This document shows, in pieces, positions 13,651 through 41,203 of a stretch of DNA of 53,358 bases. Source of the stretch: Alphaproteobacteria bacterium (GTDB taxonomy: Bacteria; Pseudomonadota; Alphaproteobacteria; JAJTHO01; CANGYM01). The stretch covers positions 1 through 53,358 of the forward strand of contig CANGYP010000003.1 of assembly GCA_947458235.1 (NCBI GenBank). The letters run 5' to 3'. Each line of letters begins with the position of its first letter. Positions within the stretch are counted from its first letter, which is position 1. Under the pieces are notes generated by a model. That model saw only the letters and a program-made list of their open reading frames with translations. It was not told the DNA's origin and made no database searches. A program made the position numbers and the translations under genes.

Positions 13651-15189
13651 TTAGCGGGGGGCAGGGGCCGTCTTGGGGCAAGTCCCCGCCAGTTCCGTTT
13701 GTTTTTCCTTGATTTTTGTGCTGATGGCGCAGCTAATGTTCAGGATTCTGGGATTCCATTGATAATCAGGGTTTTTGGTGTAGTACTCTAAAAATTGTTT
13801 CGCCTTGGCGGCGTAGGCCTTGGCGAAGCGGATTTCCCCCTCCAGAACGCGGGGGGTGTCGTGGGGATCATTGCCAGACAAAGGCATATAGGCGGCGGCT
13901 TTTTTTTGCAGATTGGTTTTGCGCTGGGCCAAAGAGAGCGGGGCAGGGGACAGGCCATCAAGGCCAGACTGATCCAGTGTCATGAAAAAAGTCGCCATAT
14001 CCTCGCGCTGGGCCTTAGCTTTGGCCACGGAGGGAGGCACCATGCGGTCATAGTCGGCTTTCATGGTTTGCAGATCTTTGGTGGCCTGCGCCACGGCGCG
14101 CCGCTGGCCATCAAGGGCGGACATAACAAAAGGGTTGTTTTTTAACGAAGGATTTTTTGCCAATGCCGCCTCGGCACGCGCCAAAGTCCTTTGTTGGCGG
14201 CGCAGGGCGTAATCTTGGCGTTGCATTTTGGCCTCAAACGCCATCCAGTTGCGGGTGGTGGTATCATACAGTTGGCTGTGTTGTTTGAACACGTTTTGCA
14301 CCAAAGCCACCCGATTTTCGGATTGTAACCATGCGGGGTTTTGAATCCCCGTTTGGCACCCCAGCAGATAAAAAAGGCCGCTGCTGTCAAAGGGCAGGGG
14401 GCGTTTCAGCAAAGTTTGTATCCCGCGGGAAAAGCGTTCGGAAAACACAGACGCATTGTTGGGGGTTTTGGTGGGAAAGCAAGCAGGGACCTGCGTTTGC
14501 AGGGTGTTTAGGGTTAATCCAGCATCACTCAGCTGGGTCAGGGTGTCTGTGACGCTAGAGGCTGTCATGGCCATCAAAGAGGTTAACGTGGCCCCCATGC
14601 GGGTCCGCAGAAGGCCAGCCTGTTCCGCGTCGCGCATACGGGCCAGCAGGTCATCCAAAAGTTGGGTCTCTAGGGCAAGGCCCCCGCCCTCTACGGGGGA
14701 TATTTTCAGGGGGCCTAGAAACTCTGGATTGGTTTGTAGGATTTTTTGCATGGCGGAGGCTGCCGAGAGGGGTTGGATCGCCGTCTCAGGGGCGGGCATA
14801 CCAGGCAGGGAAGGGGGGGGTAATGCGATTGGGGGGGTGCACCCCCGAATTTGCTGGTCATAGCGTTTTAAATCCCGAACAAATTTCTCATAGGCCTGAT
14901 CGGGTTTCAGGAAATAGGGTTGCAAAGTCTGAAACACCTGTTTGTGCTGTTCATTCAGGGCGATGATGGCCTCTTCATGGCGGATGGCGGCCTGAAAGGT
15001 GTTTTGAAACGTCAGGGATAGACTATCGCCCCGAATCAGGGTTTCTGTGGTTTTCCATTGGGTGGCGGCACTGGTGACTTGACGTGCCTGTGCCTGACTT
15101 TGCAAACACCGCAGGGTCCCCTGATCAAAGGGGGCAGCCCCCGCCGAGGGCCACGCAAACGCCAGAACAATCAAAATGAAAATCCCCAT
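13651..15189 (-). CDS. Exported protein of unknown function, type IV secretion operon
   Basis: A 512-residue protein with a signal peptide (MGIFILIVLAFAWPSAGA, probable cut before APFDQ). The mature part is mostly helical, with a Pro-rich linker at about 120-140 (PPIALPPPSLPGMPAPE) and a long Ala/Gln/Arg/Lys segment at about 310-400 that looks like coiled coil. Six cysteines are scattered. It is the last gene of the operon that begins with the VirB2-like genes, 33 bases after the 391-residue gene. Position after VirB4 suggests a VirB5/TrbJ-like periplasmic or pilus-associated part, but no family motif is recognised. A run of eight G on the plus strand (14813-14820) lies in the linker. Confidence 0.75.
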   Translation of the reverse strand: MGIFILIVLAFAWPSAGAAPFDQGTLRCLQSQAQARQVTSAATQWKTTETLIRGDSLSLTFQNTFQAAIRHEEAIIALNEQHKQVFQTLQPYFLKPDQAYEKFVRDLKRYDQQIRGCTPPIALPPPSLPGMPAPETAIQPLSAASAMQKILQTNPEFLGPLKISPVEGGGLALETQLLDDLLARMRDAEQAGLLRTRMGATLTSLMAMTASSVTDTLTQLSDAGLTLNTLQTQVPACFPTKTPNNASVFSERFSRGIQTLLKRPLPFDSSGLFYLLGCQTGIQNPAWLQSENRVALVQNVFKQHSQLYDTTTRNWMAFEAKMQRQDYALRRQQRTLARAEAALAKNPSLKNNPFVMSALDGQRRAVAQATKDLQTMKADYDRMVPPSVAKAKAQREDMATFFMTLDQSGLDGLSPAPLSLAQRKTNLQKKAAAYMPLSGNDPHDTPRVLEGEIRFAKAYAAKAKQFLEYYTKNPDYQWNPRILNISCAISTKIKEKQTELAGTCPKTAPAPR

Positions 15190-15222
15190 GCTCTACAGTC
15201 TTTCTTCGCGTCCCTGTTGCCG

Positions 15223-16398
15223 TCACTCTTGCCACACGTGGTAGTTGGGATTGTGGTAAAGGGCATGCAGCGAATCGCGCTGCAGTTTTAGGTTTTTCAG
15301 GTGGATTGTGTATTGTTCCAGCAGGCTGCGATCGGCCTCCAGCTTTTGGATCATGGCCAGACTGCGGATGATGCATCCAGAAATGGGCATATTCAGCGTT
15401 TGCAGCTTTGTGGAAAACGCGGCGCCTAGGCCAGATAAGCCACCGCCGATGAGGGGATCTTTAATGAATTGACTGGAAAATCCCGCCAATTCCCCAATAA
15501 TGGCGAGGGGGTTTTGGTTTTGAAAGACAGAAAGATCCTCCACACAGGGTTCATACAGGGTTTTGACGAGGTCTTCTGTAAACAGTTGCCGCATATGGTC
15601 ATGCACACGCCGCATCTCAGAAAAGGCATTCATGCTATAGGCCGCATGGTTGACGATGGCACTTTTGTAGGTTGCCTCCAGACATTGTTTTTGGGCCGCG
15701 AATGTTGTGTTATCACGCTGGTCTTTGTTCAAATCGATCATCTCTGCGATGGTTTTCTGGGCACACTGCATTATATATTGTGTGCGTTGGGCGTCGGTGA
15801 TTTTTTTTTCCGCTATGGCCAGATCCGCCAGTTTTTCACACTGCAAACAGCCAAAATCCGTGGGGGCGGGGTATATTTGGCGGGATTCCTCGATCAGGGC
15901 CCGCATTTTGGCATCGGGCATACCGATGGCATTTTTGATGCCTGTTAGTAAATAATACTGCTCACTGCGTTGTTTCAAAAGGTAATCGAGTTGGGCCGAT
16001 GTGGCTTTGAACTCATTAACCCGCTGGGTTTCATAAAATTGCCGACTGCCGGGCAGCATGGTCAGGTCTGTGACGCAAAACCCCGCTCCGCACCAAGTCG
16101 CATGACAGGGAATGTATCTAATGCAACCAAAACTTCCTGGGGAACATGGTTTACCAGGACATAAACAGCAACCATTAACATTAGGCGTAGGGTAACAAGC
16201 TGAATCCACGCATATATTCACCGGCATAATGGGTGGCGTGGGGATGGATGGCACATAGGCTGGCGGTGCCCCTAGCCCCAGCAGGTTGCTGCCTGCGTTG
16301 GCGGCGGTTGTGGCGGTTGAAACAATATCCGCCACGGGCACGGCCCCCGCCGTTGCCGACAGCCCTGTGATCAGCAAAAACAGGATCGCCCAGCGCAT
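15223..16398 (-). CDS. Exported cysteine-rich protein, type IV secretion operon
   Basis: A 391-residue protein with a signal peptide (MRWAILFLLITGLSATAGA). After a Pro-rich stretch comes a compact cysteine cluster: ten Cys at about 63, 68, 77, 78, 80, 85, 92, 98, 103 and 108. The remainder is helical and contains more cysteines (for example CLQCEK at about 185), with a Leu-rich coiled end. This suggests a disulfide-stabilised head on a helical stalk in the periplasm or on the surface. It starts 2 bases after the 588-residue gene stops, so it is co-transcribed. No family is recognised; a VirB5/TrbJ-like role is only a positional guess. Confidence 0.75.
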   Translation of the reverse strand: MRWAILFLLITGLSATAGAVPVADIVSTATTAANAGSNLLGLGAPPAYVPSIPTPPIMPVNICVDSACYPTPNVNGCCLCPGKPCSPGSFGCIRYIPCHATWCGAGFCVTDLTMLPGSRQFYETQRVNEFKATSAQLDYLLKQRSEQYYLLTGIKNAIGMPDAKMRALIEESRQIYPAPTDFGCLQCEKLADLAIAEKKITDAQRTQYIMQCAQKTIAEMIDLNKDQRDNTTFAAQKQCLEATYKSAIVNHAAYSMNAFSEMRRVHDHMRQLFTEDLVKTLYEPCVEDLSVFQNQNPLAIIGELAGFSSQFIKDPLIGGGLSGLGAAFSTKLQTLNMPISGCIIRSLAMIQKLEADRSLLEQYTIHLKNLKLQRDSLHALYHNPNYHVWQE

Positions 16399-16400
16399 GT

Positions 16401-18167
16401 TTATTCAAGATCTAGGGCTATCGTCTTAGGCCCAGATTCAAAAAAATCCCCCATGCTGGCACAGACATTTTGCAGAATGACCTGCTCTGCATTGACGTTG
16501 GCCATGACCAGATTGTACATGGACAGCCCGATCAGGACGTTGAGTTGGCTGGACACAGCACCATTCTCGCCAGCGCTGGACAAGGCAGCGGCCTGTAACG
16601 AGGCGATGGAGGGACACAATGTTTTTTTCCCATCTTTCCCACTCTTGGTCTTATACAAGGCTGTTTTGCATAGGTTTGAGTTGGTATTTGTTCCCAAAAA
16701 CAAGTCCTGCATCAGTTTTGCCGGTCCCTGTTGTTGCATGACGGCCATGGCGGCGCAGCGGGATTTTGACAGGCCTTGGAAATGACGGTTGACTTGATTT
16801 TCTATCTTGACACAGTTGGATGTGCTGGTCGCTATATTGCGGTTACAGTTTTTGAGGGATCGTAAAATCTCCTCCATCGCTTCGAGTTCGGACATTTTGG
16901 TCTTCGTTCTTGGCAAGGGCGCCGTATTGGGGGTGTCCATGGGTAGGATGCGGGGCGTGCCTGGGCCGCCAGGCTTCACGTCACCGGGGTTACCGCCATC
17001 TTCCCATGGCAAAGGTTTTTTTGGGTTGATGGCACTGATCTTATTCAATGTATCCACCAGTCCTGAGACTAAACCTACTTGTGCCATCCAACCGTTGATA
17101 GGACCAAGGAAGGTTGCGAGATTCGTCACAGCCTTTTGCCATTCCTTCACTTTATCTTCGTCTTTTTTTGGCATAATGAGTCCGCCTTGGATGAGAGATT
17201 CGGTGAGTTGGTTAGCTTGCAAAGCCTCGATCGTCTTTCTTATTGTGTCTGGATTCACGCCCCCACCAAATAAATCTATGATGCTGCCGATCAAGCCAAT
17301 CAGTGTGCCGAAGGCTTTGAGTTGTTCCATGATCTGCACAAATTGGGGGCCGAATGTGATACCAAAGGCTTCACCGAAGAGGTTCGCCATCTCCGTGAAC
17401 GTTGTGATACCAGAGGTCGTACAGGTAAAGATGTTTTTACAGGTTTGGAGTTTTTTGAATGATTCACTCGCGTTATCGATGTTTGTTTTCCATCTGTTAA
17501 TATCTTTCGTAAGTTGCGTAAGCTTGGCAAGGTAATCTGGTTTGTTGTCAAAATCCTTTAGTTTTGCTGTGCCCTTAAACGTAAATTGGTCTCCGTAAGG
17601 GTCGCGAGGGTCAAGATCAGGGATGGGTACGGGGGTTCCAAAATTAGGATTCGTTATAATATCAGGATCGGGGAGCGTGACATTGCCCCCACCCCCCCCC
17701 GGTTGTGGGATCACAGGGAGCGTGCCAATGTCCCCACCCCCCCCCCCCGGTGGGGGGGTCACAGGACGGGTCACAGGTTGGGTCGTTGTTGTAGATCCTG
17801 CCTCTTTTATGACATTATAGGCCATGGACAGTTCCCCCGTATAGGCCGCGTACAGGGAGCTGGAAAAGGCCAACAAAATTTTATCGCTGGTGACTGTTTC
17901 TTCGTCTTCGGGAATGTACTTAATAGCCGCCAGAATCTGATCCAGTTTGTCGTTGGTTTCGCCTTGGAGGCCGACAAGGAGCCCAAGCTGCACATTTATG
18001 GCGGTCAACAAGCCTATTTGTGTGCCCAAAAGCCCTTGGGCCACTGTATCCGACACCATCACCGTCGTGGGGGCCACGGCCGCCGAGGCCCCGTGCAGCG
18101 GCATCATCACCATCTGAATCGCGATGACAGAACACAGGATGCGTCGAAAAAGGGAAACCATAGCCAT
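16401..18167 (-). CDS. Large exported protein with Gly/Pro-rich linker, type IV secretion operon
   Basis: A 588-residue protein. The N terminus is a signal peptide (MAMVSLFRRILCSVIAIQMV, cut near GASA). A helical region at about 35-120 follows, then a linker at about 124-185 of Thr, Pro and Gly with two GGGGG blocks, and a mainly helical C-terminal region with a hydrophobic stretch at about 265-300. Cysteines near the C terminus are paired in spacing (NCNRN, SNCVK). The linker is encoded by two long poly-C tracts. The ATG at 18161 is an alternative start with better ribosome-site spacing. It follows VirB4 in the operon. Function unknown; a surface or pilus-tip role is possible. Confidence 0.75.
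   Translation of the reverse strand: MAMVSLFRRILCSVIAIQMVMMPLHGASAAVAPTTVMVSDTVAQGLLGTQIGLLTAINVQLGLLVGLQGETNDKLDQILAAIKYIPEDEETVTSDKILLAFSSSLYAAYTGELSMAYNVIKEAGSTTTTQPVTRPVTPPPGGGGGDIGTLPVIPQPGGGGGNVTLPDPDIITNPNFGTPVPIPDLDPRDPYGDQFTFKGTAKLKDFDNKPDYLAKLTQLTKDINRWKTNIDNASESFKKLQTCKNIFTCTTSGITTFTEMANLFGEAFGITFGPQFVQIMEQLKAFGTLIGLIGSIIDLFGGGVNPDTIRKTIEALQANQLTESLIQGGLIMPKKDEDKVKEWQKAVTNLATFLGPINGWMAQVGLVSGLVDTLNKISAINPKKPLPWEDGGNPGDVKPGGPGTPRILPMDTPNTAPLPRTKTKMSELEAMEEILRSLKNCNRNIATSTSNCVKIENQVNRHFQGLSKSRCAAMAVMQQQGPAKLMQDLFLGTNTNSNLCKTALYKTKSGKDGKKTLCPSIASLQAAALSSAGENGAVSSQLNVLIGLSMYNLVMANVNAEQVILQNVCASMGDFFESGPKTIALDLE
17692..17748 (-). repeat. Two poly-C tracts inside the 588-residue gene
   Basis: A C9 run at 17692-17700 and a C12 run at 17737-17748 (plus strand), each preceded by a shorter C run, encode the two glycine blocks of the linker. 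In the current lengths the frame is open. A change of one base in either would stop translation early, which is how phase-variable genes switch. This is a possibility, not shown. Confidence 0.75.
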
Positions 18168-18212: not shown

Positions 18213-20663
18213 TTAAGAATCGCTGTCAAGGTAGATGTTCAGCCATTCGGATTGGTAATTTTGCATCAACCGCTCTGCCAAGGCGCGGGAGGGTTCATCG
18301 GAATAATAAATCCGCATCAACCGCCCCAGCGCGGACAGGTCCGTGTCCAGAATGATGGATTCCCCGCTGGCCCGTTTCATCAACACAGAGCGTTTCAGTT
18401 TCTTGGCGGCGGGCAGCTTGCCGCTGATGTACAGCCATTCTCGCTCGGTTAATCCCCAGTCCTGATATTCCCGCGCTTGGCCTTGGGGGTTGGGGAAGAA
18501 AAAGGTGGTTTGCGCCTGACCACGGATGGCCTCGCCGAGGCCGGCTTGGGTGATGGCCTCTGGCCGCTGGAACGCCGAAATGACGGCGCCGCGCCGTTTT
18601 CGATATTCCTGCAACATCTGCAAAAAATAATTCCGGAAAATGGGGTGCTTGACCACGGGTTCCGTTTCATCAATAAAAATCAGGGCAGGGGCCTTCAGTT
18701 CGGAAATCGTATCCTGAATACGGTGCATCAAATACAAAATCACGGCCCGCGCCAAATCATCATGTTCGTACAGGCGCGTAAAATCCAGCGCGACAATGCG
18801 GGATGTTTTTAAATCCAGCGTGTCTTGCTTGGCGTTAAAAATTTTTCCATAAACGGCAGGATCCACCCATTTGTGAAGGTTTTTCCGCAGCATACCGCCT
18901 TTGCTGTACACCGCATCATAAATGTTGGCCAGCGACCGCCGTTCATAGGGCAGGCCGGGGGTGTCATAGGCGGCCTCAATGGAAAACCCGATTTCCTCGA
19001 TGGCATCGGCATCCTGACAATCCGACAGCGCCTGAAGAAACGCCCTGAGAAAGGATCGGTTGGACGCATTATCCTTGAGCTGGAACGGATTCATGGACGA
19101 TTGAATGCCGGGGATGTTGGACCCCTCAAACGTAATATAACTGCCCGAGGCCGCGCAGGTGAACAGATACCCCCCCCCGTGACGGTCCACCATATAATAG
19201 CGTAAATCCTCGTGCCGCATGGCCATACCCGCCAGAAAGTTGATCAGCGTGGTTTTTCCGCCCCCTGTGGGGCCAATGCTGACGGCGTGGGCGACGGCGG
19301 CCTTTTCGGGTGAGATATGAAACTGAAAGGCGTAGGGCGTTCCAGAAATGGTCCGAAAGTTGGCAATAGGTCCCTTGCCCCAGTCCGAAGAGGTCAGCCC
19401 TGGAAAGGGGCGCTCAAACGTCAAATGCGTGGCGATGTTTTTGGAAAACAGTTTGTAGGGCCGCGGCCATAATTTGAAACTGGGGAATTGTAAAAACCAG
19501 CTGGCTTGCGCCACGGCCCCCTCGCGCACCACAGAGATCCCATAAGTGCTGGCGATGCGTTTGACTTCGGCTTCGGTGGCTTCCATTTCCTCCACCGTTT
19601 TGCCATAGCAAAACACCATCATCATGTATTGTGACAATACGTTGGTGCCGCCCGTGTTGCCCTCCACCGCATCCAGTGCCGTTTCAAATTGGGCGGCGGT
19701 GCCCGGACTGAATCGCTGGGCCAGAGACAATTTGTATTGGTGGGTGATGTGGATGGCGGCTTTGGTTTTGGTCCACGGTTCGATGACGTGGGACACAATA
19801 ATTTCTCCGTGAACGCTGTTTAGGGAATTGACATAGGCTTCGTAGGTAAAATCCCCCAGCGCCCGTAACCCGACACAGCAGCAATGCAGGGTTTTGTGGC
19901 CCGATCGGAACAGGATACCCCCATCATCCCCCCCAAATTCCACCTGATCCCCGCAAATGGCATCGGATGCCCCATCCCCCACCCCCCCCGGCACGGGCTG
20001 GGAAATCGGGCTGACAATACGGGAAAACACATACAGGGGGCGCATTTTCACATCGGGATGGCCTTGTGTCATGACCATGGGGCCATATTTGTGCAAAATG
20101 TTTTGGGTGATATCGATGACAGAGTTTAGCTTTTTCTGGGACGTTTGGTCTTTGTCAGGCAAAGAAAAAACCACAAACTGGCGGTTGCTATAGGCGCGGG
20201 CAAAGGTTCCGTTCCATCGTCTGGCAATTTCCCGCAACACAGGGTTGCTGTGGGTTGTGGGGGGTGCGACATCCACTCTTTCGCGGACGGTAAAGGCCCG
20301 AATGCTGACATGATAATCTTGCAGGGCATCGATCCAGTCCTTGCGTGCCAGCAACAGCATTTCACGGTCGTGATCGCTCATGAACGTATCATCAAAGCCC
20401 ATCATTTCCACGCATTGCACCAAGTCCCCGTTTTTACAGGCAATGGTTTTGCCATCGCTTAAGACCTTTTCAAAGGGCAGAACATCCGCCAGACGGTCTT
20501 CTCTGGGATAGGGCAGCAGGACGCGGGCCGTGGTGGGTATGGCGATGACGGCAAAGGCCACACCCGCCGCAATGACACCCAGCAGGGTTAGCAGCACAGA
20601 GACCACACTGAAATGTTCAGAAAACGCAGCCAAAACCTCGGGGGATAAAGACTCAGGGGACAT
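18213..20663 (-). CDS. VirB4/TrbE-family type IV secretion ATPase
   Basis: The motor ATPase found in all type IV secretion systems. The 816 residues have an N-terminal membrane segment (about 20-43), a CagE/TrbE/VirB4 N domain (DGKTIACKNGDLVQCVEMMG and the following MSDHDREMLLLARKDWIDAL), and the ATPase. Walker A is GPTGGGKT at 464-471 and Walker B is LIFIDE at 661-666; a RRGAVISAFQRPE sensor segment follows. It overlaps the VirB3-like gene by 11 bases. C9 and C8 runs occur within it (19170-19178, 19982-19989). It should power pilus assembly or substrate transfer. The exact family (vir, trb or other) is not settled. Confidence 0.93.
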   Translation of the reverse strand: MSPESLSPEVLAAFSEHFSVVSVLLTLLGVIAAGVAFAVIAIPTTARVLLPYPREDRLADVLPFEKVLSDGKTIACKNGDLVQCVEMMGFDDTFMSDHDREMLLLARKDWIDALQDYHVSIRAFTVRERVDVAPPTTHSNPVLREIARRWNGTFARAYSNRQFVVFSLPDKDQTSQKKLNSVIDITQNILHKYGPMVMTQGHPDVKMRPLYVFSRIVSPISQPVPGGVGDGASDAICGDQVEFGGDDGGILFRSGHKTLHCCCVGLRALGDFTYEAYVNSLNSVHGEIIVSHVIEPWTKTKAAIHITHQYKLSLAQRFSPGTAAQFETALDAVEGNTGGTNVLSQYMMMVFCYGKTVEEMEATEAEVKRIASTYGISVVREGAVAQASWFLQFPSFKLWPRPYKLFSKNIATHLTFERPFPGLTSSDWGKGPIANFRTISGTPYAFQFHISPEKAAVAHAVSIGPTGGGKTTLINFLAGMAMRHEDLRYYMVDRHGGGYLFTCAASGSYITFEGSNIPGIQSSMNPFQLKDNASNRSFLRAFLQALSDCQDADAIEEIGFSIEAAYDTPGLPYERRSLANIYDAVYSKGGMLRKNLHKWVDPAVYGKIFNAKQDTLDLKTSRIVALDFTRLYEHDDLARAVILYLMHRIQDTISELKAPALIFIDETEPVVKHPIFRNYFLQMLQEYRKRRGAVISAFQRPEAITQAGLGEAIRGQAQTTFFFPNPQGQAREYQDWGLTEREWLYISGKLPAAKKLKRSVLMKRASGESIILDTDLSALGRLMRIYYSDEPSRALAERLMQNYQSEWLNIYLDSDS

Positions 20664-20949
20664 ATTTGCGGATCCCGTGCTTTCCCTTAATCAAATTGCG
20701 TGTGGATCGTTTGCTATAGGCCCATGCGGGGACAAGGGTGGCCATATGGGGCTCCCGCGCCCCTTGGGCGGCCAAAACCATATGGAAAACAATCAGGGAA
20801 ATGATAACTAACAACGGGCTGATTTTAAATAACCCCCACGCATACACAATGCCCAAGGCATGCAAGCCCATGTTAATGATGGCAGGGATCATGGGGGCCC
20901 AAAACAGGGTGGGGGGACTGGCAACAGCACGCATGACTTTTTCTGGCAT
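20653..20949 (-). CDS. VirB3-like inner-membrane protein
   Basis: A 98-residue protein, normal for VirB3/TrbD. It starts MPEKVMRAVASPPTLFWAP, has two close hydrophobic helices (about 16-55), and then the REPHMATLVPAW segment, matching the REPR-type turn of VirB3 after the second helix. The frame is open to an ATG at 20991, but AGGAAGG before the ATG at 20949 decides the start. It lies directly before VirB4, as in nearly all type IV systems, and its product probably works with VirB4. Confidence 0.85.
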   Translation of the reverse strand: MPEKVMRAVASPPTLFWAPMIPAIINMGLHALGIVYAWGLFKISPLLVIISLIVFHMVLAAQGAREPHMATLVPAWAYSKRSTRNLIKGKHGIRKYVP

Positions 20950-20980: not shown

Positions 20981-21550
20981 TTAGGGGCCATTGGTTAAAT
21001 AATTCACAATGGCACCAGCAGAGGTGATAATCGCCAACCCTGCCGTTAACGCAAACAACCACCGAAACGGAAATTTCCCAAACAGCCCCATAATCCCCAA
21101 GGCCGCTGCCGCAACCCCGCCCAAACCGAACAGGACATTGCGGGTATCTGTAAATAACACCTGTCCTGTGTCCCCAATGACCTTGGCTGTTTCCGCATAG
21201 GTTGTCACATTCTGGTTGGGTTGTACAACCTCTTTATAAAGCCATTCGCACATGGCGGGGACCAAGCTGGCGATGACCAGCGCGGCCATGACGGTAAACA
21301 GCCAGCCCCAAGGCATCTGTCCCCCATACATGGCCCGAATGCCAATGCCCAGCATGGCCAGCGTGCCTAGGGCATAGATGATGGGTTTGGAACTGTTGAT
21401 GATTTCGCTGCCTTTGATCACAGCCTCTGAAAATGGATTGTCGGGGCCGGCGTTAACGCTGCAGGCGGCCCCAGTGGTGGCCGCTGACGCCTGTCCCCCC
21501 AGTCCCATGAGCATCAAAACCATCGCAAAAAGGATCATCCGCGGGGCCAT
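20981..21550 (-). CDS. Double-length VirB2-like protein
   Basis: A 189-residue protein with a signal peptide (cut near QASAA) and two copies of a VirB2-type hairpin: helix, short basic loop, helix. Copy one is about 55-100 with GGQMPWGWLF, copy two about 138-185 with GKFPFRWLF. The usual VirB2 pilin has one such hairpin, so this looks like a tandem fusion. Its two mature cysteines may form a disulfide. It lies between another double protein and VirB3. It may be a minor pilin, a pilus base or a cap. That is inference. Confidence 0.82.
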   Translation of the reverse strand: MAPRMILFAMVLMLMGLGGQASAATTGAACSVNAGPDNPFSEAVIKGSEIINSSKPIIYALGTLAMLGIGIRAMYGGQMPWGWLFTVMAALVIASLVPAMCEWLYKEVVQPNQNVTTYAETAKVIGDTGQVLFTDTRNVLFGLGGVAAAALGIMGLFGKFPFRWLFALTAGLAIITSAGAIVNYLTNGP

Positions 21551-21562
21551 AGAGAGGGGTTC

Positions 21563-22216
21563 CTAGTTGGTTTTGGGTATGCTGTAATCGAGAGGTTGTA
21601 AAGTGCCACTGATGTTATCGTTGGGATTGGCAAAATTATCGCCCCCGACGTTATCGCCCCCCATAACCCCCACAACATCGGCCAGTTGCGCGGTAAAGGT
21701 AAAGCCCCCCAAAATGGCCATCATCCAGCCCCACCGAAAGCGGCCCGATAAAAACGATACGGCGGCCACGCCCATGGCCCCAAAGGCCCCCACGCCGTAC
21801 AAAACCTGCTTTAAACTGACGGCCACGGTGTCGCTGAATTTTTCTGTGGTTTGGAACAGCTCAACACCGTTGGATGTATAGCCGCTGTAGGCCCTGTATT
21901 GCTCGCGGACGGATCCATAAAATTCAGGCATGATGGACAAAAACGCCAAGGATCCGATATAGGCAAAAAAGTATCCCCACGGCCAGCGCCCCAACAGGGA
22001 CATGATAATCAGGCCAATGGCCCCCAAGCCCGCCAAACCAAACGCCACCCCGCCCATGTTATCGGCCATGCTGTTGGCGGAACCCTCTAATTTCGCGATG
22101 GGGGATTTTGCAATGGCGGCCGCTGTTTGGGTGAAAACAACCATCAGGCCCAAAACCAAAACCCCCCACCACAGCCCGCCGCCCAAACGTCGGAAAAAAC
22201 GGGGGGCGGGGGACAT
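21563..22216 (-). CDS. Double-length VirB2-like protein
   Basis: A 217-residue protein with two VirB2-type helical hairpins, about 56-98 (LLGRWPWGYFFAYIG) and 136-184 (SGRFRWGWMMAILGG), joined by a hydrophilic segment rich in Tyr. The N terminus is a basic signal peptide (FFRRLGG then a hydrophobic core to TAAA). The C-terminal 30 residues are Asn/Gly/Asp-rich and polar. It has a strong AGGAG ribosome site. With the 189-residue gene it makes a pair of duplicated-module pilin relatives, which is unusual. Confidence 0.82.
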   Translation of the reverse strand: MSPAPRFFRRLGGGLWWGVLVLGLMVVFTQTAAAIAKSPIAKLEGSANSMADNMGGVAFGLAGLGAIGLIIMSLLGRWPWGYFFAYIGSLAFLSIMPEFYGSVREQYRAYSGYTSNGVELFQTTEKFSDTVAVSLKQVLYGVGAFGAMGVAAVSFLSGRFRWGWMMAILGGFTFTAQLADVVGVMGGDNVGGDNFANPNDNISGTLQPLDYSIPKTN

Positions 22217-22250
22217 GGCGGGGGACTCCTGAATTGTTGATATAATGAAA

Positions 22251-22607
22251 TTAATCGCTGGTTTCTAGGCCACCAAGATTGGTTCCACCTCCAGCGAGGT
22301 TTTCAACAGCAAGGTTGTAAAGCCCAATCAGGGCCAATCCGCCGACCAGTCCAAAAAACCACCCCCATTGAAAGCGGCCAAAGAACGCCAAGGCACCCAA
22401 GGCTACGGCCCCTAAGCCGCCGATTCCATAGGAAATGGTGCGGCTGGCCTTGGTGGCGTCCCCGACGACACCTGACACCTCGGTGGTAATGTTTTGGCCC
22501 GTCAGCTGTCCATTCCCCCATGTGACTGAATTGTTAGCGAATGCTGGGGGGGAAAAAGCCATAAAGGCAACAAACATAAGACTGAAAAGGGTGAGTAAAT
22601 GTTTCAT
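22251..22607 (-). CDS. VirB2-like pilin (single module), paralogue 1
   Basis: A 118-residue protein: signal peptide MKHLLTLFSLMFVAFMAFS with cut near PAFA, a short variable region (25-42), then the two-helix pilin module with the loop FGRFQWGWFF, and a variable Gly-rich tail. Residues 43-101 are identical to the neighbouring paralogue at 22662-23012. VirB2 proteins form the pilus of type IV systems. The AGGAGAT ribosome site fits the start. It is probably the major pilin or one of two alternative ones. Confidence 0.88.
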   Translation of the reverse strand: MKHLLTLFSLMFVAFMAFSPPAFANNSVTWGNGQLTGQNITTEVSGVVGDATKASRTISYGIGGLGAVALGALAFFGRFQWGWFFGLVGGLALIGLYNLAVENLAGGGTNLGGLETSD

Positions 22608-22661
22608 AAGGGGATCTCCTAGTGATATTTGGATTTGTTAGATTCTCTCTATCCAAGATGG

Positions 22662-23012
22662 TTAAGGTGTACTGGTTTTGAGGTCGCTAAGGTTGCCTCC
22701 CCCTAGGTTGGTAACGGCCAAGTTGTAAAGCCCAATCAGGGCTAATCCGCCAACCAGTCCGAAAAACCATCCCCATTGAAAACGGCCAAAGAACGCAAGG
22801 GCCCCCAAGGCCACAGCCCCCAATCCCCCAATCCCATAGGAGATCGTGCGGCTGGCCTTGGTGGCGTCCCCGACGACACCTGACACCTCGTCTGTTATGG
22901 GACTGCCTTTGAGGTTCCCCGGAGCCCACTCCACTGGGCCAGCGGCGGCTGGGGGGGAAAAAGCCATAAAGGCAACAAACATAAGACTGAAAAGGGTGAA
23001 TAAAGATTTCAT
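22662..23012 (-). CDS. VirB2-like pilin (single module), paralogue 2
   Basis: A 116-residue protein with signal peptide MKSLFTLFSLMFVAFMAFS and the same 59-residue core as the paralogue at 22251-22607. The two differ in the mature N terminus (GPVEWAPGNLKGSPIT here, NNSVTWGNGQLTGQNIT there) and in the C-terminal tail. The frame is open to 23105, but the ATG at 23012 follows GGAGA and gives the matching signal peptide. Two pilins with the same core and different exposed ends suggest surface variation or two filament types. Confidence 0.88.
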   Translation of the reverse strand: MKSLFTLFSLMFVAFMAFSPPAAAGPVEWAPGNLKGSPITDEVSGVVGDATKASRTISYGIGGLGAVALGALAFFGRFQWGWFFGLVGGLALIGLYNLAVTNLGGGNLSDLKTSTP

Positions 23013-23064
23013 AAGGGTATCTCCGTTGATGTTGGTGTTCTGAGGGTGTTGGTTATGGTGTGCA

Positions 23065-23430
23065 TCAAAAGGGATCCCCCGTAAAAGCGGTGACGCCTGT
23101 GCCATAAAGGCCCACCAGCATCAATCCCCCCATCAATCCCCATAACCAGTTCCAATTAAAGCGGCCAAAAAACGCAAAGGCTGACAGGGCCACGACCCCA
23201 AGGCCGCCCAAGCCATAGCTGATTTGCCGCCCAGAAGATGCACTTTCATCCACAAAGGTTTCCATTTTTCCAATCACTTGATCGGGGGATTTAAAAGATC
23301 CTGTGGTGGTGGTGGGCCATCCCGCTGCATCGGCAGTTGTGGCGTGACCACACAGCAAAAGGCCAGCCAAAATCACAATCCCCAAAACACGACCACAAAG
23401 ATCGGAAAACGACAGAACGGCGTTTGTCAT
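23065..23430 (-). CDS. VirB2-like pilin (single module), first gene of the operon
   Basis: A 121-residue protein, more divergent than the two paralogues after it. It has a signal peptide (cut near TADAA), a Thr/Ser-rich N-terminal part and the pilin hairpin SYGLGGLGVVALSAF...FFGRFNWNWLWGL. It has a GAAGGAG ribosome site. It is the first gene after the dyad promoter at 23454-23485 and therefore probably the start of the ten-gene operon that runs to 13651. Confidence 0.85.
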   Translation of the reverse strand: MTNAVLSFSDLCGRVLGIVILAGLLLCGHATTADAAGWPTTTTGSFKSPDQVIGKMETFVDESASSGRQISYGLGGLGVVALSAFAFFGRFNWNWLWGLMGGLMLVGLYGTGVTAFTGDPF

Positions 23431-37457: not shown

Positions 37458-39626
37458 ATGACAGCACGATTCGGCTTTTTGCGGCGTGTGGCGGCCTTGG
37501 CGTTGTGCCTTGGCGCGATGGTGTTGATGGGCGGGCAGGGGGCGTGGGCTATGTCTTGCGTTCAGGCGGCTGAAATTGTGGATGCCCTGTATAGTACGGG
37601 GGCAGGTGCGGGTAGCAATGGGATTCCTGGGGATTACAAACCCCCGTGTCAGTTACCTGCTGGCAGGATTATTGCCATCCAAGCTACTGAAAGTGGTCCC
37701 TATGGAAATTCTGGAACAGAATCAGGAGGAGGTGCCAAAGGTTGTGGGCAGTTGATCGGGCATAAAAATCCCACTTACCCTATTGGATCCAAGACCTTGA
37801 GCTATGATCTCCTAGGCAACAATATACACAATCTCTTACGGGGCGCAGAATATCTTTGTTATTTGCAAGATTATTTAAGATTGTATGTAGATGAAGATCG
37901 CTGCGAACTCATAGCCGCTGCCTATAATGCTGGGGAAGGTGTCGTACAAGGTGGTATACGATTGAACAAATCTCGTGGAAAACCACTGACGTTGGAGAAC
38001 ATTTTGGAAGCAGGTGTGCCATTATTTCCTAGACTGTACCCTGTTCCTCAAAAAAAAATAAAAGAGGCTTTGGGCCATGCAGGATGCACCTGCGGGGGAG
38101 AATATAGAAAATATGTTGAATCTGGACGGTTTTGTCGCCCCAACGGCGGCGGCATCGGCGGCATCGGCAACGTGGCCACAGGGGTTTTGATTGTGGATCA
38201 AATCGCCGATGTGGGCACGGGTGTGATTCAGGCGTTGGCCAGTGTGGTGAAAACGGCTGTTGTGTTGTTTGACAAACATCTGGGACCTGCGTTGTTGAGT
38301 GTGGTGATGGTGATTTACAGCATCATGGCCCTGTGGGCGATTGCCAAGCTGCTGATGCCCTTTGGCCGTCCAGGGAATGCGGGCCAGACCATGAACGGTC
38401 TGTTGACCTTGACGGGTACGGTGGGGATTGTGGCGTTGATGTTGAACAATCTCAGTTTGCTGACGTCCATGGTGTTTTTTCCCATCATGAGCTTAATGAC
38501 AGAGCTGGGGGATCTGAGTGCCAGCAGTTGTCAAAGTGCCAGCACACTCTCCACCCCATGCACTGCGGCCAATGCCCAATCCCTGTCGGGGGATGTCGCC
38601 AAAGATGCCAAGCTGTTGGCCACCCGCATGACCTGTACCGTGGATCAGGCCATGCAGCCCCTGAAACAAATCCTGCGCATTTCCATGGCCAGCCTGAAAC
38701 GGCTGGAGGGGGATTTTCAGAGTCCAGAAGCGTCCTTTATCCAAAACATCACGGATAGACTCCCGGGTGCGAAGTTTTCTGTTCTGGGACTGGTGGGTGG
38801 AAAGATCGATGAAGCCAAAACACAGAGCACGCAGATTTTGGTATTGGCCAGTGCGGTCCCCTTGGCGGTGATGTCGGCGACGTCCATTTTGGGCATCGTG
38901 GCCACCACGGCGCAGGCCTTTTGGAAAATTGCCTTTGAATTTTTTAAACTGGCCCCTGCGGTGGCGGCCTTTGCCTTTCGTCCCACACGGGGTGTGTTTT
39001 CCACCAGTGTTAAGGGGTGGATCAGCCCCATCATGATCTTTGCGGTGATTTACAGCATATTGGGCCTATCGTCGGGCATTGTATGCAATCTGCCCTTGGG
39101 CAAAACGGCCGATGGGAAAGACTACACATTAGGTGAGAGTGGCGATGCGTATGTTGCGGGTATTCCTGATGCGCCTGTTATAGGGACGCTCCCTGATCTT
39201 TTTCAATGGAAGTCGGGCGAGGCCCTGTTCCCTGTTTTAACCAAAAGCGTTTGGATCACGTTGGCCTTTTTCACCATTTTTATTAACAGCTCGTTGCGGT
39301 TGGCTGCCAAGATGGATTGGGTGGGCGGCGGCGGTCTGGCCGATGGTCTGCAAAAATTGGTCAGCAATACCTTGGGCAATCTGGATCATTACAAAGCCCT
39401 GATGCAAAAAACCGTGGGCTTGGCCAGCGATGTGGCCCAAAATGCTTGGATGAAATCTGGGGATGAGAAAAAGAAGGACAAAGAAGATAAAAAAGATGAT
39501 GGTAAAGAGGGTGACAAGGACAGCAAGCCTGCGGACGGATCGTCCTCGGAAGGGGGCCAGAGCAACACCGACCAAAGCGGGGGTAGCCAATCGGCCCCAA
39601 GCCCGCAGGAAAGGACCCCCGTATGA
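37458..39626 (+). CDS. VirB6/TrbL-like membrane protein with N-terminal lytic transglycosylase domain
   Basis: A 722-residue protein. After a signal peptide (cut near AWAM) comes a soluble SLT-type domain: catalytic Glu78 in IQATESGPYG, GAKGCGQLIG at 92-101 and AAYNAGEG at 154-161. From about 240 there are several membrane helices in two groups (about 275-350 and 460-600), as in VirB6/TrbL channel proteins, and then a Lys/Asp/Glu/Ser-rich tail of about 60 residues. The domain order joins a VirB1-type peptidoglycan cutter to a VirB6-type channel. The SLT segment looks more A+T-rich than the rest. It overlaps the next gene by 4 bases. Confidence 0.85.
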   Translation: MTARFGFLRRVAALALCLGAMVLMGGQGAWAMSCVQAAEIVDALYSTGAGAGSNGIPGDYKPPCQLPAGRIIAIQATESGPYGNSGTESGGGAKGCGQLIGHKNPTYPIGSKTLSYDLLGNNIHNLLRGAEYLCYLQDYLRLYVDEDRCELIAAAYNAGEGVVQGGIRLNKSRGKPLTLENILEAGVPLFPRLYPVPQKKIKEALGHAGCTCGGEYRKYVESGRFCRPNGGGIGGIGNVATGVLIVDQIADVGTGVIQALASVVKTAVVLFDKHLGPALLSVVMVIYSIMALWAIAKLLMPFGRPGNAGQTMNGLLTLTGTVGIVALMLNNLSLLTSMVFFPIMSLMTELGDLSASSCQSASTLSTPCTAANAQSLSGDVAKDAKLLATRMTCTVDQAMQPLKQILRISMASLKRLEGDFQSPEASFIQNITDRLPGAKFSVLGLVGGKIDEAKTQSTQILVLASAVPLAVMSATSILGIVATTAQAFWKIAFEFFKLAPAVAAFAFRPTRGVFSTSVKGWISPIMIFAVIYSILGLSSGIVCNLPLGKTADGKDYTLGESGDAYVAGIPDAPVIGTLPDLFQWKSGEALFPVLTKSVWITLAFFTIFINSSLRLAAKMDWVGGGGLADGLQKLVSNTLGNLDHYKALMQKTVGLASDVAQNAWMKSGDEKKKDKEDKKDDGKEGDKDSKPADGSSSEGGQSNTDQSGGSQSAPSPQERTPV

Positions 39627-41203
39627 TCCGCATCATGATCCTGTTGATACTGCTGGGGGGGTGGGGGCAGGGGGCTTGGGCGGCAACGCTGGGGAAGTCT
39701 GATCCATTCACGCCGCCGCCAGCATCCACCCCAGCCCCTGATCCGTCGTCCGCGACCCCATCGGGAAGCTCGAATCCTCTGGATTTTGGAAAAATAAACG
39801 TTCCAAATGTGGGCACCATCGATGCGTTTGACCCTGGCGAAAAACGTCTGGCGGAAACGTGCCAGACTTACGAAAGTATGTTTGTTGTGCAGGGGGATAT
39901 TACCGCCAACAATCCAGCGGCCAGTTTGATCCAGAACTTTTTGCGGGCTTTTGCGGCCCTGCAACAGGCCTTTAATACCAAAATTGCGGATGCGGCGGTG
40001 GGGTTGGGGTTGATTTTGCTGGTGTTGTTTTCGTTGTTTTATGGGCTGCGGTTGGTGTTTCCCTTCACCCCTTACGGGCAGATTGCGGAGACCTATAACC
40101 AGATTTTCAATCTGTGGGGTGTGGCGGCCGTGGTGTTTTTGATTGTCATGAATCCGAATTTTATCCCCAACAACGTGGTGTACCCTGTGTTCAAAAGTTT
40201 GGTGAATGCCAATTTTACTTTGCTGCAGGTGTCCTCGACCTTGGCCAACGAGGCCACAGAGGGGGCGTCCAAAACCGACCCCAGTTGCCTAGGGAAATCA
40301 GGGGGCAACAACCCGTTGGAGCGCATCATTCGCGGCATCGTCGAACAAACCACCTACGCCCAAGGCGTCAGTATGAACAACCTGTGCATCAGTCTGAGCA
40401 TTATCGGCTTTGCCGATCCTGATGACGGCGACCGCTGTCTAGAAGCCAACAGGAAAAAAAGCACTATCGAGGCCTGTAAAGCTGAAAATGTGGCCAAAGG
40501 TTTATTGGAGGCGGCGTGGTGTGAGGCCGTGATAGAAGGACAATTCCTGGCTGGGGCTTTTATGGGGGCCCTGGATCTGATAGGGGGACTTTTAAATATG
40601 GCTTGGAAGGCACTTTCATCTGAGAATCCCTTTATGGTGCTCCTTAACGTCGTCATTAAAATGATTTTTGGATTTGGTTTGTTCATGATTGCATTGTATA
40701 AATACCTGATGATCGGGCTTTATATGCTAGAGGCCGCTATGCTGCCCTTTATCCTGTCCGCATTTTGGAGTTTGATTTTGATCGTTGGCATCATTCCTGC
40801 GGGGCGAGAGGTCATCAAAACCGCCTTCTTCGCCGTCTTGCAGGGCGGTGCCACCATCATTTTTCTGGGGGTTGGGCTGTCTGTGATTGCGGCGATGGAT
40901 ACTTATGTCTGGTATCAATTTACGAAGGATCCCAATATGGTCCAAACGACACTCGTCAGTTCCAAAAACTTTATGTACGCTTGGCCTTTATGGATGATTT
41001 TAATCACCAGCTTTGCGGGCATCAACGCCCTGAAGCAGGCACGGTCCATGGCGGAATCGGTCTTTAAAACGGGCCTTAGCTTACAAATCGCCGACAGCTT
41101 GTTTGGAACGTTTAAGCAGATGGTGTATTTTGCCATGGATGTTTTGGGGGATCTGGCCAGTGCTGGGGGCTTTAGCAAAATTCGCCGTGTGGTGCTGCGC
41201 TGA
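39623..41203 (+). CDS. VirB6/TrbL-like membrane protein
   Basis: A 526-residue protein with a signal-like N terminus (cut near AWAA), a Pro/Ser-rich region (about 25-60), and six to seven membrane helices at about 115-175 and 310-460. The middle region contains several cysteines in a soluble loop. It matches VirB6/TrbL in size and layout. Its start overlaps the stop of the SLT-VirB6 fusion, so they are translated together and probably sit in the same inner-membrane complex. Two VirB6-like genes in a row recall the expansion seen in Rickettsiales, but homology to those is not shown. Confidence 0.8.
   Translation: MIRIMILLILLGGWGQGAWAATLGKSDPFTPPPASTPAPDPSSATPSGSSNPLDFGKINVPNVGTIDAFDPGEKRLAETCQTYESMFVVQGDITANNPAASLIQNFLRAFAALQQAFNTKIADAAVGLGLILLVLFSLFYGLRLVFPFTPYGQIAETYNQIFNLWGVAAVVFLIVMNPNFIPNNVVYPVFKSLVNANFTLLQVSSTLANEATEGASKTDPSCLGKSGGNNPLERIIRGIVEQTTYAQGVSMNNLCISLSIIGFADPDDGDRCLEANRKKSTIEACKAENVAKGLLEAAWCEAVIEGQFLAGAFMGALDLIGGLLNMAWKALSSENPFMVLLNVVIKMIFGFGLFMIALYKYLMIGLYMLEAAMLPFILSAFWSLILIVGIIPAGREVIKTAFFAVLQGGATIIFLGVGLSVIAAMDTYVWYQFTKDPNMVQTTLVSSKNFMYAWPLWMILITSFAGINALKQARSMAESVFKTGLSLQIADSLFGTFKQMVYFAMDVLGDLASAGGFSKIRRVVLR

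Follow-up and report, generated by a model that had tools for sequence, protein, structure and literature searches.

Tandem-fused VirB2-type modules in the pilin gene array of a putative alphaproteobacterial type IV secretion system

Introduction

Textbook members of the VirB2/TrbC family carry one hairpin per protein, and descriptions of the conjugative pili solved so far present them as built from a single small pilin. What is to be made, then, of a pilin locus in which two of five genes encode two such hairpins in a single chain? The locus lies in a complete contig (C3) of 53,358 bp, referred to throughout as the window, from a 1.40-Mb draft genome of an alphaproteobacterium (94.7% complete). 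Five pilin genes run on its minus strand from 23430 to 20981 and encode, in order of transcription, proteins of 121, 116, 118, 217 and 189 aa. Together these contain seven helix-loop-helix modules of the VirB2/TrbC type (1+1+1+2+2), with VirB3 and VirB4 directly downstream.

A preliminary description of this DNA had set the array against type IV systems with, as usual, one VirB2. This is too simple, as arrays of VirB2 genes have been described from more than one group (PMC3556328, PMC2883598, PMC12102498). Anaplasma phagocytophilum has 8 to 15 virB2 copies (PMC3556328) and Bartonella birtlesii five trwL (PMC2883598). Both resemble the window in having several diverged VirB2 genes in tandem within a type IV secretion system (T4SS) locus; their copies are, however, described as separate single pilins, with no mention of tandem fusion in the text available. 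The Patescibacteria have 441 VirB2 arrays of 2 to 11 genes each (PMC12102498), and one patescibacterium has six VirB2 genes essential for survival (as reviewed in PMC12857230). These arrays, like that of the window, hold strongly diverged VirB2-like pilins in tandem near virB4, but they belong to another envelope type and T4SS class, and multi-module pilins are not mentioned in the portions seen (PMC12102498). Since many VirB2 copies per system are thus already known, seven modules alone are not new, nor is the copy number unusual. What appears to be new here is the fusion of VirB2 modules in tandem, of which a search of largely open-access literature returned no report.

Results

The array and its neighbours

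The array is flanked on one side by a gene read as chorismate synthase and on the other by VirB3-VirB4. Its three single-module pilins, all VirB2-type, are of 121 aa (23065..23430, minus strand; module at ~23080-23244, loop GRFNWNW), 116 aa (22662..23012, minus; ~22701-22865, GRFQWGW) and 118 aa (22251..22607, minus; ~22293-22457, also GRFQWGW). The 217-aa double (21563..22216, minus) has module A at ~21908-22069 (GRWPWGY) and module B at ~21659-21826 (GRFRWGW), separated by a linker of 26 residues. The 189-aa double (20981..21550, minus) has a linker of the same length between module A (~21236-21403, GQMPWGW) and module B (~20993-21157, GKFPFRW). The positions, sizes and order of the seven modules in five consecutive genes were as previously described, judged by the open reading frame list and an independent profile, and each of the seven loop motifs is literally present in the translations. 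All five genes have a Shine-Dalgarno-like stretch ahead of the start. For the 116-aa gene the start was taken as the ATG at 23012; an alternative in-frame start lies further 5' at 23105. The 116- and 118-aa pilins are 83% identical in pairwise comparison and are recent gene duplicates; the duplication is not present in a genome of the same genus (G001).

Downstream, on the same strand, lie a 98-aa VirB3-like protein (20653..20949), whose Pfam VirB3 match (3e-4) spans nearly the whole model just below cut-off and which is likely VirB3, and an 816-aa VirB4 ATPase (18213..20663; TIGR00929, 3.3e-100). Three genes 3' of VirB4 (13651..18167, minus) encode exported-looking proteins of 588, 391 and 512 aa that gave no confident Pfam or NCBIfam match and have orthologs in G001 in the same order. 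The 588-aa product (16401-18167) shows 39% identity and a dN/dS of 0.45 relative to its G001 counterpart, against much slower neighbours (VirB4 is 95% identical); such fast change might be that expected of a surface-exposed part.

Assignment of the modules to VirB2

To avoid circularity, the profile used for this question excluded the window's order and every genome with a three-module protein. It was built from 115 single-module pilins belonging to other lineages and was run on all 264 window open reading frames of at least 60 aa. The singles were recovered with domain E-values of 3.5e-17 (121 aa), 2.9e-15 (116 aa) and 9e-16 (118 aa), the 189-aa protein with 4.4e-11 (A) and 6.9e-18 (B), and the 217-aa protein with 1.2e-6 (A) and 5.4e-9 (B); the best non-pilin reached E=0.21. 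Shuffled versions of the two doubles (n=4,000) scored at most 9.7 bits, where the unshuffled modules scored 22.5 to 58.6 bits. Pfam TrbC/VIRB2 (PF04956) matched the 116-aa (5.9e-7) and 189-aa (5.4e-9) proteins above cut-off, the 121-, 118- and 217-aa proteins falling below it, and all 24 single pilins of a further alignment (A6) match TrbC. The profile searches therefore neither placed the doubles in an unrelated membrane family nor left the singles without a VirB2 match, and the membership of both in the VirB2/TrbC family, as originally proposed, is borne out. A whole-genome module search, which like our other statements on genome content is based on family searches and individual contigs, found the seven modules of the array and no others.

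Relative to G001, dN/dS was 0.12 (121 aa), 0.19 (116 aa), 0.18 (118 aa), 0.28 (217 aa) and 0.20 (189 aa) in the pilin genes, and 0.05 in VirB4; the five pilin genes are therefore maintained under purifying selection. An array arising by chance or artefact is ruled out by the independent profile, the shuffles, dN/dS and the orthologs, and an assembly accident is ruled out for the doubles because both recur in the same-genus genome.

Hydropathy indicates an N-terminal segment and two hydrophobic segments per module in the 189-aa protein; in the 217-aa protein, helix 2 of module A is under threshold. A predicted signal sequence at the N-terminus, followed by a pair of hydrophobic helices for each module, matches the plan of the VirB2/TrbC family (PF04956; A. 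tumefaciens VirB2, R388 TrwL), whose members also share with the window the two-helix hairpin, the short and usually positive hairpin loop and a gene position beside VirB3-VirB4. Each of the three singles has one hairpin. Unlike the textbook members, two of the five window proteins have two per chain, and the 217- and 189-aa proteins are therefore classed as a tandem variant of the family. A positive loop residue occurs in six of the seven modules, module A of the 189-aa protein being the exception. The most divergent modules are the two of the 217-aa protein, and the distance from the family profile is greater in the doubles than in the singles, except for module B of the 189-aa protein.

Hairpin geometry and structure prediction

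Over 233 modules in 224 proteins, the hairpin measured 55 positions 229 times and 56 positions four times; as hairpin ends were extrapolated to profile ends, this covers insertions within the hairpin only. The flanks vary freely, with N-terminal parts of up to 866 and C-terminal parts of up to 1,254 residues. Linkers between modules range from 18 to 42 residues overall and are of 25 or 26 in all five doubles. Length variation is thus confined to the termini and linkers, the parts expected to lie outside a pilus, a position that we infer.

AlphaFold2 models of the two doubles, built from six sequences, are of low confidence (mean pLDDT 57 and 48); both show no more than the order of the parts, a signal helix, the first hairpin, the linker and the second hairpin, in agreement with the hydropathy. 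The roles that the preliminary description suggested for fused pilins, as adaptors, a cap or a base of the filament, accordingly stay conjectural. A fold search of the PDB returned no significant match, the highest probability (0.23, E 8.2) being that of the A. tumefaciens T-pilus (8exh), and PDB sequence searches returned VirB2 of 8exh at E 5.4 only, amid chance matches. Conjugative pili of known structure have the loop that connects the two long helices turned to the lumen, away from both pilin termini; in the H-pilus those termini are linked to one another (PMC11722321). The C-to-N linkage of successive hairpins is therefore topologically compatible with a pilus.

Relatives and the history of the fusions

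The preliminary description had proposed a search of genomes for double-module genes next to VirB3-VirB4. Doubles do adjoin VirB3-VirB4, and both double and triple forms occur in other genomes. In G001, whose VirB3 is 92% identical to that of the window, two singles (136 and 116 aa) and two doubles (217 and 187 aa) precede VirB3-VirB4. In G002 (another family of the same order), two singles (134 and 113 aa) and one double (218 aa) precede VirB3-VirB4, with VirB8 and VirB9 further downstream. Both window doubles thus have counterparts in G001, and the 189-aa protein also in G002. A genome search of G003, of the same order, found no VirB2 modules.

Three-module proteins (327 and 304 aa) come from two families other than the window's. 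The 327-aa triple belongs to G152, a genome labelled Holosporaceae (L073) from another order, in which a 125-aa single, the triple, and 142- and 132-aa singles are followed by VirB3-VirB4. The 304-aa triple is encoded by one of six genes in a row in G135, outside the order. A 349-aa open frame in G135 was considered as a further double; it is actually two adjacent genes (189 and 154 aa). In the 2.0-Mb genome of G135, four loci (L060:3699-6626, L061:4235-4657, L062:5491-6388, L178:4503-5549) with 11 genes between them hold 13 VirB2 modules; one locus other than the six-gene row adjoins fabI- and aroC-like genes, as does the window array. Module totals differed between relatives (7, 6, 5, 0 and 13). 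A double-alignment search of 398 genomes phylum-wide, a small sample and a loose first look, gave no further two-module match. At L071:8188-11451, a VirB4 63% identical to that of the window has no VirB2 or VirB3 alongside.

A tree of 50 modules was built on 67 columns, and because of this short alignment many of its forks are unresolved. The first modules of the 189-, 187- and 218-aa proteins form one clade (96/81) and their second modules another (96/84). As A modules group with A and B with B, this double was in place before the two families diverged. The triple of G152 falls together with the neighbouring 125-aa single (99/97), and that of G135 is nested in a clade of its own genome's pilins (95/94). 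A single origin, with all fused modules held as one clade, was rejected (p-AU 0.0004), and this, together with the grouping of the triples with pilins of their own genomes, implies that tandem fusion arose more than once. Origins tested for the 217-aa double (copying of the 189-aa double, internal duplication, fusion of two singles) gave p-AU values of 0.3 to 0.6 or were weakly supported in the best tree, and no alternative was rejected.

Large VirB2-hairpin proteins

In alphaproteobacterial genomes from gut and rumen metagenomes, VirB3-VirB4 usually follow three VirB2-type genes, one small, one medium and one large, the product of the last carrying one VirB2 hairpin within up to 1,896 residues (for example L082:2858-8545, L095:2849-8539, L098:3407-8536, L109:3129-8534, L110:3417-8528 and L090:3988-8532). 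VirB2 exceeded 300 aa at 35 of the 65 named loci that have it, and in the large proteins tested Pfam matched almost nothing outside the hairpin. A 570-aa protein of G034 (L063:3972-5684) bears the hairpin near its C-terminus, after an RHS-repeat-like region (a weak Pfam match). At two gut loci (L012:12313-18990, L053:690-3327), a secretin (Pfam, 2.8e-15) and a type II/IV secretion ATPase (1.3e-71) adjoin VirB2-VirB3-VirB4, along with a protein read as TcpQ-like; this suggests a mixed T4SS and secretin system.

The secretion system of the window genome

Further components are spread over other contigs. VirB8-, VirB9-, VirB10- and VirB11-like genes are clustered on contig C41, where VirB9 and VirB10 are separated by a lipoprotein gene; VirB10 matches PF03743 (9.2e-35), and the identity of the VirB8-, VirB9- and VirB11-like genes is taken from a reading of their sequences and comparison with Pfam-tested homologs in G002. 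The VirB10-like protein (L021:3613-5316) begins in the manner of a lipoprotein (LGACG), and its TrbI domain is preceded by an additional domain about 100 residues long. VirD4 (PF02534, 2.6e-65) stands isolated on contig C1 amid housekeeping genes. The component set of a VirB/VirD4-type (MPF_T) system is accordingly represented by VirB3, VirB4, VirB8, VirB9, VirB10, VirB11 and VirD4. VirB6 gave no match to Pfam TrbL (PF04610), and multi-spanning candidates lie at window 37458-41203 on the plus strand, where a 722-aa protein with a lytic transglycosylase (SLT) domain and several hydrophobic segments is followed by a 526-aa protein rich in such segments; the two are possibly a VirB1-VirB6-like pair of this system. 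No relaxase match (PF03432) was found in this 94.7% complete genome. A plasmid origin was rejected: among 72,556 plasmids, tblastn with the 189-aa protein gave one partial match, to a TrbC/VirB2 gene, and with the 116-aa protein none. On gene content, we regard the whole as a dispersed chromosomal VirB/VirD4-type T4SS. The T4SS of Rickettsiales is similarly dispersed, its vir genes lying at separate sites of a small alphaproteobacterial chromosome (PMC2653234, PMC7648143); the component amplified and enlarged is VirB6 there (PMC2653234, PMC7648143) and VirB2 in the window and its relatives.

Discussion

The reading that we tentatively prefer, at a little short of an even chance, is that each tandem pilin takes up two adjacent subunit positions in a mixed pilus; incorporation, position and stoichiometry are what we infer here. 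The operon would supply the pilin set of the chromosomal system, with ordinary VirB2 pilins made from the three single genes, and tandem pilins, each of one signal peptide, two hairpins and a 26-residue linker, from the other two. In the inner membrane the short loop of each hairpin would be cytoplasmic, and the linker, it is proposed, therefore periplasmic. VirB4, with VirB3 and VirB6, would extract the pilins into a fibre with loops toward the lumen and linker outward, so that one chain could occupy two neighbouring subunit positions. Tandem pilins would most likely be minor subunits that tie neighbouring positions together covalently, perhaps in the initial or final layers of the pilus.

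Several observations count in favour of such tandem pilins. All seven modules are VirB2-type by the independent profile; they are co-directional with VirB3-VirB4, and VirB8-VirB11 and VirD4 are in the genome; the hairpin is fixed where termini and linkers are free; both doubles are kept in the genus and that of 189 aa in a second family as well; two- and three-module forms originated repeatedly; and C-to-N linkage is topologically possible. Against them count the low-confidence models, the want of a significant fold match, the missing positive loop residue in module A of the 189-aa protein and the divergence of the 217-aa modules. As AlphaFold2 gives a helix plan only, no structural data separate this reading from its rivals.

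The divergence of the doubles from the family profile, greater than in the singles save for module B of the 189-aa protein, would suit doubles that never polymerise, acting instead as four-helix inner-membrane proteins at the VirB3/VirB6 pilin-recruitment site or channel, with a pilus of singles alone. In each of the window, G001 and G002, the gene directly upstream of VirB3 encodes a double, and VirB2 has been proposed to bind VirB3 and VirB6 (PMC12624023). The three-module gene of G152, however, does not adjoin VirB3, and the fixed hairpin length and repeated independent fusion would fit any role without preferring this one, which we hold to be rather unlikely. Slightly more doubtful still is an array whose main use is to diversify the surface, a function put forward for Bartonella TrwL and Anaplasma VirB2, in which the doubles are tolerated by-products of tandem gene duplication with no role of their own. 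Amplified, variable VirB2 is already known (PMC3556328, PMC2883598), copy number is unequal among relatives (7, 6, 5, 0 and 13 modules), and the 116/118 duplicate is recent, being absent in G001; yet the 189/187/218 double is older than the divergence of two families, purifying selection acts on both doubles of the window (dN/dS 0.20 for the 189-aa and 0.28 for the 217-aa protein) and linker length is held at 25 or 26. We think it improbable, by comparison, that the doubles are cleaved within the linker, as precursors yielding two ordinary pilins in equal amounts from one gene: known VirB2-family pilins are indeed processed at both ends (PMC2653234, PMC11722321), but the linkers, KEVVQPNQNVTTYAETAKVIGDTGQV and EQYRAYSGYTSNGVELFQTTEKFSDT, show on inspection neither a signal-peptide-like segment nor an AxA site ahead of module B.

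Were tandem pilins to enter the pilus as preferred here, they would fix which subunits neighbour each other, would provide a handle on assembly order and on tip and base composition, and would bear on whether VirB4 is able to pull a substrate of four helices out of the membrane. The weight of the finding is raised by the recurrence of the fused form and by the single hairpins that gut relatives carry in very large proteins, and lowered by the hypothetical state of any function and by a copy number that is not in itself unusual. It may be, though we would put this at somewhat less than an even prospect, that in several alphaproteobacterial lineages VirB2 is modular (single, double or triple, and in the gut embedded in up to ~1,900 residues) and that T4SS pili are there mosaics of covalently linked neighbours and decorated minor pilins, not homopolymers. 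The independent reappearance of double and triple forms, and a fixed hairpin with variable termini, make the idea testable, and the fused array could show whether T4SS pili can be assembled from subunits that are permanently joined.
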